A DNA stretch of 64,000 nt. Origin: Aureimonas pseudogalii (GTDB lineage Bacteria; Pseudomonadota; Alphaproteobacteria; Rhizobiales; Rhizobiaceae). The DNA is taken from NCBI RefSeq assembly GCF_014196835.1, contig NZ_JACIEK010000011.1:1-64000 (forward strand), in the 5' to 3' direction. The notes under the pieces were generated by a model. It was not told the origin of the DNA. It did not search any database and saw only the letters and a program-made list of their open reading frames with translations. Shown here one piece after another: positions 59,162 to 64,000 of this stretch (its first letter is position 1; every line of letters starts with the position of its first letter). Position numbers and translations under genes: made by a program.

Positions 59162-60961
59162 TCAGAACAGGAAGTCGTCGACGTCGTCGGCGGGCGGGGG
59201 CGGCGCGGCGTTCACCACGGCCGACGGCAGGACGGTGAGGCCCATGGCGCGGAACGAGGCCTCGAAGATCGCGCGCTCCTCGGCCATCGTGTACTGCGCG
59301 GCGAGCAGCCCGTAGAGGCGCAGGCCCTCCTCCGCCGACATCGCCTCGTCGGGCAGCCCGGCGAGGAGCTGGCGCAGGATCGCGATGGTCTGGCGCATCA
59401 GGCCGCAGCCCTCGACATGCGGCGTCATCAGCGCGGTGATCGCCTCGACCTTGGCGCCGAGGCCGCGGGCGTTCACCGAGGCCTCGCGCAGCGTGTCGAG
59501 GCATTCGGCGTCGATGCGCTGCAGGATGCCCGTCGCCTCGGCGAACTGCGAGGCGATCTCGCCCTCGGCCGAGCCGATCTTCGGCAGGATCGCGCCTTCG
59601 AGCTCGCGCGTCGCGCTGACCGCGACCTCGATGCCCTCGCGCACGAGGTCGGCCTGCGCCTTGGCGAGCGAGGCCTGCTCGCGGATCTCGCGGGCGATGT
59701 AGCCGATCGTCTCGTCGCCCGAGTCGACATGGGCGGCGCGCACCGCGGCGTTGAAGCCGGCGAGCCGCAGCGTGTGCTCGAGCGCGGCGAGCTCGTCGGT
59801 CATCTCGATGAGCGGGCCGGCCGCCTCGACGCATTCGCGCAGCGAATGGTCGAGATGCTGGCGATCGACCTCGTCGCGCGAGAAGCGCGCGCGCACCTTG
59901 CCCGCCTCGCGCTCCAGCACCGCGATGGCGCTTTGGCCGGCACCGTCGGAATCGTCGGAGAAGAGCTGGCCGAGCAACCGGTCGCTCGCCGCGATCTCGC
60001 CGGCGATGATCTCCAGATTGCCGTGGAGATCGCCCATCTTGGTCTCGTAGAGCGTCGTCAGGCTCTCGATCTGCGCGATCTCGAGCTCGACGATGCGGCG
60101 CAGCGCCAGGTTGCGCGCGGTGCCCTCGAGCGGGGCGCCGTCATGGGAGAGCTGGCCGGTCTCGGCGATGAGGAAGAGGCGTTCGAGATTGCCGAGCGTG
60201 TGTTCGAGGCGCTGGCGGGCGATGTCGTGGAACTGCAGGCCCATCACCAGCCCGCCGACGGCGTCGCGGATGGCGGAGAAGGAGCGGTGCGCCTCGGCGC
60301 GCGTGGTGGCGACGGCGTCGCGCTCCTGGGCGAGGCTGCGGCCGAGCGTGCGGAACTGGAAGGCGAGGCTCGGCTCGCCGAGCATCGCCTTGGCGCCGAC
60401 GCGCGCGTCGATGGCGCGGCTCTCGCCGATATGGCCGGCGAGCAGGCGCACCCGCTCGTCGAGCGCGCGGGCCACGCTCTGGCCGGAGCCGACGAGTTCG
60501 TGCACGTGCTGGGTGAAGGGCACGAGCACGTCGCGCGCCTGCGTCATGCCCTCGACATGGGTGCGCGCCACCAGCACCACGTAGTCGAGGAGGCGGAACA
60601 CCAACGCCACGGCGGTGGAGCCGGCGGCCGCCGTCGACACGCCGTCGGCGAGGGTGCGCAGCACGCTGGAGCGCTCGATCGCCAGTTCTTCCAGCGAGGC
60701 GGCGGAGGTCGCGGCGGTGCCGAGCAGGCTCTCGACGCGGTCCGCCTCGGGCGAGGTGACCACCTCGGTGGAGCGCCGGATGCAGTCGCGCACGGCGCCG
60801 ATGCGCCGGTGCAGCAGCTGCAGATCCTCGCCCGCCCCGAGATAGACCGCCTCGGAGGAGACGTTCCACTGGTGGATCTGCGCGAGCGTGCGGCGCAACG
60901 CCTCGAAGCCGTCGGGCAAGCCGGCCTGGGCGAACGTGCTGGAGGGAAGCAGGGTCGTCAT
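59162..60961 (-). CDS. Chemotaxis-operon coiled-coil protein with CheZ-like motif and degenerate receptor tip
   Basis: 599-residue soluble helical protein, last gene of the che operon. It has no membrane segment. The first 190 residues are a helical bundle. HDIARQ (245-250, in GLQFHDIARQRLEHTLGNLE) resembles the CheZ catalytic DxxxQ (QDFQDLTGQ; D143 and Q147 in E. coli). Further on, FNAAVRAAHVDSGDETIGYI (starting at residue 403) resembles the chemoreceptor tip LNAAIEAAR...FAVVA-EVR but is degenerate. The ATG at 60961 has GGTGA upstream; a GTG at 60970 overlaps the cheB stop (GTGA), so translational coupling is likely either way. Function in controlling phosphorylated CheY or the receptor array is inference. 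Confidence 0.75.
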   Translation of the reverse strand: MTTLLPSSTFAQAGLPDGFEALRRTLAQIHQWNVSSEAVYLGAGEDLQLLHRRIGAVRDCIRRSTEVVTSPEADRVESLLGTAATSAASLEELAIERSSVLRTLADGVSTAAAGSTAVALVFRLLDYVVLVARTHVEGMTQARDVLVPFTQHVHELVGSGQSVARALDERVRLLAGHIGESRAIDARVGAKAMLGEPSLAFQFRTLGRSLAQERDAVATTRAEAHRSFSAIRDAVGGLVMGLQFHDIARQRLEHTLGNLERLFLIAETGQLSHDGAPLEGTARNLALRRIVELEIAQIESLTTLYETKMGDLHGNLEIIAGEIAASDRLLGQLFSDDSDGAGQSAIAVLEREAGKVRARFSRDEVDRQHLDHSLRECVEAAGPLIEMTDELAALEHTLRLAGFNAAVRAAHVDSGDETIGYIAREIREQASLAKAQADLVREGIEVAVSATRELEGAILPKIGSAEGEIASQFAEATGILQRIDAECLDTLREASVNARGLGAKVEAITALMTPHVEGCGLMRQTIAILRQLLAGLPDEAMSAEEGLRLYGLLAAQYTMAEERAIFEASFRAMGLTVLPSAVVNAAPPPPADDVDDFLF

Positions 60962-60966
60962 GGGGA

Positions 60967-62076
60967 TCACCGGCCTTGCGCCGCGCGCTGCGCGGTCTTG
61001 GGGAACTGGTCGTGGGCGAAGCGGACGATCTCGGCGGGGATGCGGTCGAGGGCGATCTCCTGCGCCACGGCGCCGGCCTTCATCGCCTCCTTCGGCATGC
61101 CGTAGACGATGCAGGTCGCCTCGTCCTGGCCGATCGTGTGGGCGCCGGTCTGGCGCAGTTCCAGCATGCCCTTGGCGCCGTCGTCGCCCATGCCGGTCAT
61201 GATGATGCCGAGCGCGTTGGCGCCGGCCGAGCGCGCCGCCGAGCGGAACAGGACGTCCACCGAGGGGCGGTGGCGGGTGACGAGCGGACCGTCGCGCACC
61301 TCGACGTGATACTGCGCGCCCGAGCGCTGCAGCAGCAGGTGGTGGTTGCCCGGCGCGATGAGCGCCAGGCCCGGCATCAGCCGGTCGCCGGTCACCGCCT
61401 CGCGCACCTCGATGCGGCAGAGCCCGTCGAGGCGCTTGGCGAAGGCGGAGGTGAAGCCGGCGGGCATGTGCTGTACGATGGCGATGCCCGGGCAGTCCAC
61501 GGGCAGCGGCTCGAGGATGCGCCGCAGCGCCTCGGTGCCGCCGGTGGAGGCGCCGATCACCACGACCTTGTCGGTGGTGCGGTCGATCGGGCGCCCGCTG
61601 GACGGCGGCAGCACGGCGTCGGCGGTGAGCTTCTCCTGCGGCGCGCTGGAGGCGGAGGGCCGGCGCACCCGCACGGTGGCCTGCGCGGCGGCGCGCACGG
61701 CGTCGCAGATGCGGGTGCGCGCCTCCATCAGGAACTGCGGCGTGCCGACCTTGGGCTTGGCGATGATCTCGACGGCGCCCGCCTCCAGCGCCTGCAGCGC
61801 CATCTTCGAGCCGGCCTCGGCGAGCGAGGAGCAGATGATCACCGGGATCGGGCGCTGGCTCATCAGCTTCTGCACGAAGGTGATGCCGTCCATGCGGGGC
61901 ATCTCGATGTCGCAGATGATGACGTCCGGCACCTCCTCGCGCAGCCGTTCGGCGGCGAAGTAGGGATTGGAGGCGGTGGCGGCGACCTCCATGTCCGGCT
62001 CGGCGGAAATGATCTCGGACAGGACCTGACGCACGCTGGCGCTGTCGTCGACCAGCAGGACACGGATGGTCTTCAT
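60967..62076 (-). CDS. cheB: Chemotaxis response regulator protein-glutamate methylesterase CheB
   Basis: 369 residues. Receiver domain with Asp10, Asp11 and phosphorylated Asp56 ([10 protein letters not shown]); linker 115-165; methylesterase domain with catalytic Ser177 ([10 protein letters not shown]), His203 (IVQHMP) and Asp299 ([10 protein letters not shown]). It removes methyl groups from chemoreceptors and sets adaptation. Start 4 bp after the cheR stop; the next gene overlaps or closely follows its stop. Complete and canonical. Confidence 0.97.
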
Positions 62077-62080
62077 GGGG

Positions 62081-62980
62081 TCAGTCCTCCAGCCGTTCGT
62101 AGATGTTCCCGCGGATGAGGCGTAGCGGCAGCTTGCCCGAGCGCGTCGTGTCGGAATGCCCGAGGATGAGGAGACCGCCCGGCCGCAGATGCCGGCAGAG
62201 CTTGGCGACGACGTCGTGCTGCACCTGCGGCTCGAAGTAGATGAGGACGTTGCGCAGGAAGATGATGTCCATCTTCGTCTTCACGCGGTACTCGGCATGC
62301 ATCAGATTGATCTGGCCGAAGGTGACGCGGCCGCGCAGCTCCGGCGAGACGCGCACCGCGTCGGAGTCGGGATCGCGCGAGCGCAGGAGATAGCGCTCCT
62401 GCAGCGCCGCCGGCACCGGCGCCACGTCCTCGGTGCGGTAGATCGCCTCGCGCGCCGCCGTCAGGATCTTCACCGAGATGTCGGTGGCGAGGATCTGCCA
62501 GTCCCACTGGCGCGACTGGGAGGCGACAGCGTCGAGCACCATCGCCAGCGTGTAGACCTCCTGGCCCGACGAGCAGGCCGCGCTCCAGGCGCGCAGGGTG
62601 CGCCCGTCGCCGTTCTGAACGAGGCGCTTCAGCTCGGCCTCGTTCAGGTGGTCGAAATGGGCGCGCTCGCGAAAGAACGAGGTCTCGTTCGTCACCACCG
62701 TGTCGACGAAGGACTGCATTTCCTGCGCGGCGCCCGCGGGGGTTTGCAGCAGGCGCAGGTAGCTCTCGAAGTCGGGGAGCCCGGTGACCTGCAGCCGGCG
62801 ACGCAGCCGCGTCTCGAGCATGGTCTTCTTGATGCGCGAGAGCGAGACGCCGCAGCTCGTGTAGACGAGCCGCACGAGGACGTCGAACGTCTGGTCGGAG
62901 AGCTCCACCCGCGTCCACTGGGGAATAGCGTCGGAGGGGGCCGAGACCGGCGGCTTGAGGGCTGCGGAGACCTGGGCCAT
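62081..62980 (-). CDS. cheR: Chemotaxis protein methyltransferase CheR
   Basis: 299 residues. The start at 62980 is 5 bp from the CheW stop. The N-terminal helical domain ([20 protein letters not shown]) precedes the SAM-binding fold: [50 protein letters not shown] and [19 protein letters not shown], all family signatures. It methylates receptor glutamates. No TPR extension is present. It works against CheB encoded downstream. Confidence 0.97.
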
Positions 62981-62985
62981 GAGGC

Positions 62986-63498
62986 TTACGCCGCGCGCGC
63001 AGGCGCGGCGCCGTCGAGGCGCCCGAACAGCTGCTCGATGCGCAGCAGCGTCAGGAACGCCTCCTTGCGCCGGCCGAGCCCCTGCATGAAGTCGTTGTTC
63101 CAGGTCTCGCCGACATGCGGCGGGGCTTCGAGCGTCTGGTCGGAGAGGTCGGCCACCTCGTGCACGGCGTCGGCGATGACGGCCACCGTGTGGTGGCGGG
63201 CGTCGGCCTCGAACTCGAGCACCACGATGCGGGTGTCGGGGCCGATCTCGCGATGCTCGCTCGCGGCCATCGCCAGCTTGGCCTTGAGATCGACCACCGG
63301 CACGCCGACGCCGCGCACGTCGATCATGCCGAGAAGGCTCGCCGGCGCGTTGGCCATCGGCTGTATGGGCTTGTAGTCGAGGACCTCGCGCACCTGCCGC
63401 ACGTTCACCGCGAAGTCGCCCGAGCCGAGCTGGAAGGTGAGCATCTCGCTGCCCTCGTCCGGATCGGCCTCGGCGGAGGGTTGGAAGTGTTGGCTCAT
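62986..63498 (-). CDS. cheW: Chemotaxis scaffold protein CheW (first copy)
   Basis: 170 residues, CheW fold: LTFQLGSGDFAVNVRQVREVLDY, ASLLGMIDVRGVGVPVVDLKA, RIVVLEFEADARHHTVAVIADAVHEVADL. It links CheA to receptors. It has a Glu/Asp-rich N-terminus of about 20 residues and an ending EAFLTLLRIEQLFGR. It lies 87 bp downstream of a second, edge-truncated cheW. Two cheW genes in a row suggest different CheW pools for different receptors. Confidence 0.95.
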   Translation of the reverse strand: MSQHFQPSAEADPDEGSEMLTFQLGSGDFAVNVRQVREVLDYKPIQPMANAPASLLGMIDVRGVGVPVVDLKAKLAMAASEHREIGPDTRIVVLEFEADARHHTVAVIADAVHEVADLSDQTLEAPPHVGETWNNDFMQGLGRRKEAFLTLLRIEQLFGRLDGAAPARAA

Positions 63499-63585: not shown

Positions 63586-64000
63586 TCAGGCGTCGTCGAG
63601 CAGGCGCTCGACGTCGAGGAGCACCACGAAGCGGTCGCCCTGGCGCACCACGCCCTCGAGATAGCGGCTCGGCCAGCGCGAGCCGTATTCGGGCATCGCC
63701 GACACGTCGCTCTCGCGCACGTGGATCACCTCGTAGACCGCGTCGGTCTTGATCGCGACCTGGAAGGTCTCGCCGGCGGCGGTGGAGACCTCCGACACGA
63801 TCACCCGGCTCGTCGGGGTGTCGTCGGCCCGCGCCATGCCGAAGCGGGCGCGAAGATCGACGAGCGGCAGCACGTTGCCGCGCACGTTGATGAGGCCGGG
63901 CGCGAAGGGCGGCGCGTTGGGAATGCGCGTCATCGGCGGCGGATCGAGCACCTCGTGCACGAGCGCCACCTTCAGCCCGAAGAGGTCGTCGCCGAGCGCG
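63586..64000 (-). CDS. cheW: CheW-like protein (second copy), 5' end beyond the window
   Basis: Partial CheW: the visible part covers 138 codons up to the window edge and continues upstream (reading ALGDDLFGLKVALVHEVLDP at the edge). The fold continues with NAPPFAPGLINVRGNVLPLV, RVIVSEVSTAAGETFQVAIK and GDRFVVLLDVERLL, ending DDA. A GTG inside it could mimic a start, but the upstream residues fit the CheW beta-strand, so the gene extends past the window. Confidence 0.88.
   Translation of the reverse strand, partial: ALGDDLFGLKVALVHEVLDPPPMTRIPNAPPFAPGLINVRGNVLPLVDLRARFGMARADDTPTSRVIVSEVSTAAGETFQVAIKTDAVYEVIHVRESDVSAMPEYGSRWPSRYLEGVVRQGDRFVVLLDVERLLDDA

Follow-up and report, generated by a model that had tools for sequence, protein, structure and literature searches.

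Receptor-type hairpins and a CheZ-like DxxxQ helix in a conserved che-operon protein of Aureimonas pseudogalii, a candidate CheY-P phosphatase

Results

The last gene of the che operon falls outside the family libraries

The window analysed in this work is a 64,000-nt stretch of the Aureimonas pseudogalii contig NZ_JACIEK010000011.1. Its far end carries a che operon on the minus strand whose order, read over the window and the adjoining contig, is STAS-cheY-cheA-cheW-cheW-cheR-cheB-X, X being the gene studied here and the last of the operon (Table 1). Genes from cheW to cheB were called by Pfam and cheA by PF02895; STAS and cheY, which together with cheA sit just beyond the window end, were assigned by reading. 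In the operon CheY we read, likewise by eye, an Asp that can be phosphorylated along with the customary Thr and Lys. An earlier note, made from the DNA letters alone, had described X as the closing gene of a che operon, encoding 599 residues and no membrane segment. The coordinates given there proved right, with an open frame of 599 codons on the minus strand; cheB lies directly upstream, with STAS, cheY and cheA further along the adjoining contig; the highest 19-residue hydropathy mean of 1.75 is consistent with the lack of a membrane segment; and D246, Q250 and F403 stand at the residue numbers assigned to them. A GTG codon at 60970, 9 bases upstream of the ATG, overlaps the cheB stop by 4 bases and so may be the true start.

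Table 1. Genes at the operon end and features of the X product (window positions)
Feature	Position	Strand	Basis or remark
X (window gene)	59162..60961	minus	599 aa from ATG at 60961; 602 aa from GTG at 60970
cheB (REC + methylesterase)	60967..62076	minus	PF00072, PF01339
cheR	62081..62962	minus	PF01739
cheW	62986..63498	minus	PF01584
second cheW	63586..64000, past window end to C11:64053	minus	Pfam and adjoining contig
receptor-like hairpin 1, N-terminal (helices 71-137, 143-193)	60383..60751	minus	AlphaFold2; receptor PDB matches
helix 199-268 with DxxxQ motif	60158..60367	minus	AlphaFold2, full and unit models
LQFHDIARQRLEH, residues 242-254, CheZ-like D246/Q250	60200..60238	minus	44-row alignment; CheZ register
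receptor-like hairpin 2, C-terminal (helices 345-411, 417-498)	59468..59929	minus	AlphaFold2; family profile
degenerate receptor tip LAGFNAAVRAAH...GYIAREIREQA, residues 400-430	59672..59764	minus	comparison with receptors
YTMAEER, residues 557-563, nearly invariant	59273..59293	minus	Y, T, M, E, R at least 90% in 44 rows
acidic-aromatic tail DDVDDFLF, C-terminal	59165..59188	minus	tail rule; short helix 594-598, pLDDT <50

Searches with the protein returned no family at E 1 in Pfam or in PHROG, two irrelevant models far under cut-off in NCBIfam (E 0.034 and 0.053) and, when the single sequence was compared with PDB sequences, no match. A literature search that lay mostly outside subscription journals found no description of a protein of receptor fold that carries a CheZ motif. 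In the family libraries used and in that search, no described family with both elements turned up, in line with the note. Likewise, no cheZ was found in the operon, in line with the earlier note, nor in the whole genome, where CheZ (PF04344), CheC (PF04509) and CheX (PF13690) gave no match at E 0.001.

X homologues occur in many Hyphomicrobiales genomes and often follow cheB

A genome scan found eleven Aureimonas homologues with 40-86% identity, and a single-sequence search found the protein in 6 of 199 genomes of the order Hyphomicrobiales, its own genome aside. With a profile of the N-terminal half, nearly full-length matches down to E 1.9e-28 were obtained in at least 50 of 397 Hyphomicrobiales genomes, a lower bound given that five candidates were scored per genome; the 50 rows were chosen by hand, and weaker rows were receptors or single-unit proteins (see below). 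A class-wide count with a different profile (179/385 genomes) was left unused for prevalence because that profile also matches ordinary receptors via the hairpin. The alignment used throughout has 44 rows, namely the window protein, the 11 Aureimonas homologues, L022-L024 (L024 truncated) and 29 further loci; it leaves out L086, L117 and L118 and does not comprise all carriers.

cheB was found directly upstream on the same strand in 32 of the 44 loci; in 17 the two genes overlap by 4 bases if our choice of start codons is right. The 12 remaining loci include L081 and L083 (neighbours unread) and L090 (120 bases of upstream sequence). By reading, L064, L073, L078 and L085 adjoin divergent STAS or cheY frames, L068 adjoins a divergent cheB-like frame and L069 sits between response-regulator-like and STAS-like frames; no che gene was seen within the stretch read at L080, L082 and L084. 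A plasmid search with the window protein gave no match and one with relative L069 gave 14 records. On an Agrobacterium plasmid the member gene lies near cheB, cheR, cheW and cheA, and on a Shinella plasmid it is divergent from STAS-cheY-cheA. Plasmid-borne relatives are annotated 'chemotaxis protein' or 'type VII secretion target'. The latter label, carried for instance by the Shinella member L118 8950-10674, probably stems from PF10824, which the coiled coil matches with 25.0 bits (cut-off 23.5).

The earlier note had also suggested that X could be an alternative to CheZ. In the taxonomic family of the host this fits, as CheZ was found in 0 of 21 genomes and a window-type protein in 10 of 21, on the reading that both searches drew on one set of 397 genomes. 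In the order at large it does not: CheZ (PF04344, E 0.001) is present in 25 of 50 carriers vs 207 of 347 non-carriers (Fisher p 0.22). Replacement of CheZ as a general rule is ruled out by the 25 carriers that have both.

X is built of two chemoreceptor-type units

In the full AlphaFold2 model (pLDDT 86, pTM 0.70), D246 and Q250 fall within the helix that spans residues 199-268. A model of the unit formed by residues 62-278 (pLDDT 90, pTM 0.55) was compared with the PDB by Foldseek, and the 13 best matches were all chemoreceptor entries with a probability of 1.0, none of them at E ≤0.001. The CheZ structure 1kmi was absent among the matches listed, which were the best 50 of 895 for the full model and 50 of 438 for the unit model. 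The best-E Foldseek match of the full model (TM-score 0.13) was discarded as long-helix noise. At the sequence level, a profile of 15 family members reached the chemoreceptor PDB entry 2ch7 with E 1e-12 in the second half of the protein; the ten best of its 38 PDB matches were receptors, and CheZ was not among the 38. PF00015 gave no match with the window protein at E 1 and matched 7 of 7 relatives examined at E 0.16 or better, one of them over cut-off; relative L024, which reads MLAVNARIEAARLDGSAEDFTVF at hairpin 1, matches there with E 7.9e-4, under cut-off. X shares with chemoreceptors (PF00015; the soluble 3g67 of Thermotoga maritima) the hairpin fold and the tip sequence, and differs from them in its degenerate tip, the extra DxxxQ helix, the CheZ-like tail and the unmatched Pfam model.

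The tip of the window protein reads FNAAVRAAHVDSGDETIGYIAREIR, the Glu/Arg/Glu positions of receptors being replaced, and in the alignment both tips are degenerate. The residues lost are presumably the CheA/CheW and trimer (partner-dimer) contacts, and the proposal that X is an array component is not supported. The likeness of the C-terminal tip to the receptor hairpin, already noticed from the letters, is supported by the 2ch7 match and can be specified as receptor-derived and degenerate; the N-terminal hairpin 1 and the C-terminal tail had been overlooked. The structure prediction and HMM comparison proposed as a check returned a receptor-like fold in the hairpin regions and no match to PF04344.

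Each half of the protein aligns with a family of single-unit proteins (hhalign E 3e-12 and 7e-13), and the halves align with each other (E 3e-6 and 8e-7 in two alignments; shuffled controls E 0.06 or worse). Judged by these profile comparisons, the window protein contains two tandem copies of a unit made of a receptor hairpin and a DxxxQ helix, whereas the earlier note had seen a single receptor tip combined with a single CheZ motif. A single fusion of CheZ and a receptor was ruled out by the homology of the halves. No conserved DxxxQ exists in the second unit, where such a string occurs at residues 495-545 in 4 of the 44 rows. In five relatives (L064, L068, L073, L078, L084) the second unit reads LDF[QE]..LG, which resembles DFQDLTG of E. 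coli CheZ and is perhaps the remnant of a second active helix.

The DxxxQ motif is invariant and in register with the CheZ active helix

Residues Q243, D246, R249, Q250, R251, E253 and H254 are invariant in 44 of 44 rows, giving the pattern QxxDxxRQRxEH. The alignment has 11 invariant columns, and the concentration of 7 of them within residues 243-254 (hypergeometric 5e-11 per window of the alignment) is beyond chance. D246 and Q250 are kept in rows down to 16% identity with the window protein.

We compared the motif region with a profile of 11 CheZ proteins from Hyphomicrobiales. The hhalign match between the profile of residues 195-300 and CheZ spans 43 columns and brings both D and Q into register. 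This alignment scored 27.6 (E 6.6e-4, probability 27%), a value reached by none of 100 column shuffles (maximum 18.4) nor by the reversed CheZ (13.8), and residues 375-480, within hairpin 2, scored 28.0 against another part of CheZ (columns 83-149), so that the score alone cannot single out the motif. At the motif itself CheZ reads QDITGQRI and several relatives GDITRQRI, with D-I-T-[GR]-Q-R-[IL] in common. The resemblance between HDIARQ and the CheZ active helix, the starting point of the earlier note, is thus borne out by the register and by the invariance of D and Q. In a helical wheel, D246 lies 130-151 and Q250 169-177 degrees off the hydrophobic moment; these angles would fit exposure and are not decisive, the estimate being biased by those very residues.

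PF04344 left the window protein, 7 relatives, L025, L117, L118 and L094 unmatched at E 1, and its value for an Aeromonas single-unit protein was E 0.73 (10.1 bits, cut-off 30.7). Membership in the CheZ family was ruled out by this model. X resembles CheZ in the DxxxQ helix, in register and with local profile similarity over those columns, and in an acidic-hydrophobic C-terminal tail. It differs in its receptor-type tips, its tandem duplication, a length more than twice that of CheZ, the unmatched PF04344 and the invariant R249, R251, E253 and H254 around the motif; since these four residues are as invariant as D and Q and are not CheZ features, the site may have another role.

The C-terminal tail is common to several proteins of such clusters

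A fixed tail rule was satisfied by 40 of the 44 rows (exceptions L022, L024, L057 and L062) and by 15 of 174 background frames, which were 9 single-unit proteins, L092, L099, 3 receptors ending in GWEEF and L046. DDVDDFLF resembles, in sequence, the CheY-binding tail of CheZ, whose end in E. coli reads ...SQDQVDDL followed by six further residues. L046 is a receptor whose C-terminal part, by reading, is PilZ-like and whose tail is EEDDIDLF; it has no DxxxQ after the tip. The CheD proteins at L012 17289-17822, L114 1396-1950 and L115 1399-1989 end in GEVEFF, SIEFF and DIELF. That CheD proteins and a receptor without DxxxQ end alike means that the tail is not phosphatase-specific; the similar tails of CheD, DxxxQ and CheT-like proteins of such clusters suggest a common binding partner. 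Relative L015 1225-3222 (minus strand; the same gene as L058) has a C-terminal extension in which acidic-aromatic motifs are repeated (DDDIFF, DFDLF, EDVFF and a final DDLDDIFF).

Single-unit proteins join a receptor hairpin to a DxxxQ helix

In the single-unit layout a lone receptor hairpin comes first, the DxxxQ helix lies about 100 residues beyond its tip, and the tail closes the protein. L025, a profile hit, is a short receptor with a canonical tip followed by LQFQDRIKQRLEHV, YTMKEER (the counterpart of YTMAEER in X) and a DDNIDLF tail. A search with the C-terminal segment of L025 gave matches in 13 of 398 genomes of the phylum Proteobacteria. Nine of the 13 combine hairpin and DxxxQ (L087, L088, L089, L091, L093, L094, L095, L097 and L098), a frequency that is partly selection because the query contained the motif; two (L090 and L096) are members of the X family, and L099 keeps DIVSQ with no recognisable tip. 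L092 is an independent tandem duplicate of the unit; its first copy reads EEVVTQ and its second EDMVTQ. Of 52 frames whose receptor tip is canonical, 6 contain DxxxQ by pattern, always 99-104 residues past the tip; of the other 46, one (L087) has FQFQDRAQQ, a string that escaped the pattern. Elsewhere in Proteobacteria there are short receptors that combine a canonical tip and DxxxQ.

In the window protein the tip starts at about residue 129 and the motif at 242, in keeping with the layout of the single-unit family, with which both halves align. X and single-unit receptors such as WP_268015531.1 share hairpin, DxxxQ and a tail ending in F, whereas the latter have one unit, a mostly canonical tip and, in some cases, N-terminal hydrophobic segments. 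WP_268015531.1, from Aeromonas, is annotated as a methyl-accepting chemotaxis protein and adjoins cheY, STAS and cheA. Similarity of the single-unit family to CheZ is weak (E 0.0096, probability 4%).

X has no profile match to CheT-like proteins

Several alphaproteobacteria lack CheZ; termination of CheY-P signalling in them has been attributed to phosphate-sink CheYs and, of late, to CheT. A second, divergent che cluster adjoins the operon beyond the window (contig C11:67185-76307; L012 9185-18307). It comprises a receptor ending in GWEEF (CheR/CheB pentapeptide type), STAS, CheY, CheA, CheW, CheR, CheB, CheY, CheD and a CheT-like frame of 117 aa with DTASQ and the tail GDLDLF. This CheT-like gene could fill the role proposed for X.

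According to the review PMC12654446, CheT has a DXXXQ motif and a CheZ-like predicted structure, acts on one of two CheYs and binds CheR; it is known from S. meliloti and, as atu0522, from Agrobacterium (Agbekudzi et al. 2024, as given in PMC12654446). PMC8429497 describes S. meliloti, Agrobacterium fabacearum and R. leguminosarum as being without CheZ, and a cheZ-like gene of Azorhizobium is cited in PMC13390405. CheT and X are both alphaproteobacterial che-cluster proteins with DxxxQ, and three CheT-like proteins share the acidic-aromatic tail with X. Unlike X, these three have 117-129 aa and no receptor hairpin. Membership of X in CheT was ruled out, since profile comparison with these three proteins gave hhalign E 0.13, no better than shuffles, although in so small a set a remote kinship may have escaped.

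Discussion

The reading that we favour, with a probability of about 0.58, is that X is a cytoplasmic CheY-P phosphatase on a chemoreceptor scaffold, an activity that we infer. Its unit would pair an antiparallel hairpin of receptor type with a CheZ-type DxxxQ helix about 100 residues beyond the hairpin tip, duplicated in tandem so that the first copy retains D246/Q250 and the second is without a conserved motif. In CheZ, Q147 positions the attacking water and D143 contacts a CheY lysine. By analogy with the CheZ tail, the acidic-aromatic C-terminal peptide of X would bind CheY-P and deliver it to the DxxxQ helix, where Q250 would position the attacking water and D246 would contact the CheY lysine. 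The substrate is likely the CheY of the same operon.

The receptor-like fold of both halves also suits another explanation, unlikely in our view, by which X would be a soluble chemoreceptor, or part of an array, that has degenerated, its invariant polar helix serving for binding and not for catalysis. The strict motif takes in R, R, E and H as well, residues absent from CheZ, and this is in its favour. However, the tip of the window protein is devoid of the residues that in receptors contact CheA, CheW and the partner dimer, and a receptor would need no DxxxQ in register with CheZ.

The position of the gene raises a further explanation, to which we give a low probability. X might act on CheB: bound to its receiver domain, or else to CheR, it would control adaptation through dephosphorylation or sequestration. 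Such a role would account for the frequent placement directly after cheB (32/44 loci), with a 4-base overlap in 17/44, and it agrees with CheT, another DxxxQ protein, being reported to bind CheR in PMC12654446. Against it, no cheB was found directly upstream in 12/44 loci, several of which adjoin STAS-cheY or STAS-cheY-cheA. Finally, it is very unlikely that X is a non-catalytic CheY-P binder that titrates or localises its ligand: the CheZ-like tail in 40/44 rows and the acidic-aromatic repeats of L015/L058 would agree with binding, but a protein that only binds would not be expected to keep D and Q so strictly.

We tentatively consider, as a possible though doubtful extension, a Proteobacteria-wide superfamily whose members bear a catalytic helix of CheZ type on a chemoreceptor hairpin. 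Its single-unit members, with their canonical tip, would couple to CheA/CheW and also dephosphorylate CheY-P within the array; X would be a soluble, duplicated branch in which the phosphatase was retained and coupling was lost. Were this true, one molecule would serve both kinase control and signal termination, and if the single-unit receptors are phosphatases too, the usual division between receptor and phosphatase would fail in those systems. Genes now annotated as methyl-accepting, chemotaxis or type VII secretion target would then need renaming.

For Hyphomicrobiales, a conserved and unnamed family encoded near cheB in many members is a direct candidate for ending the CheY-P signal. As X consists of two chemoreceptor-shaped coiled coils, one with a CheZ-like motif, and a CheZ-like tail, receptors and signal terminators may share a scaffold.
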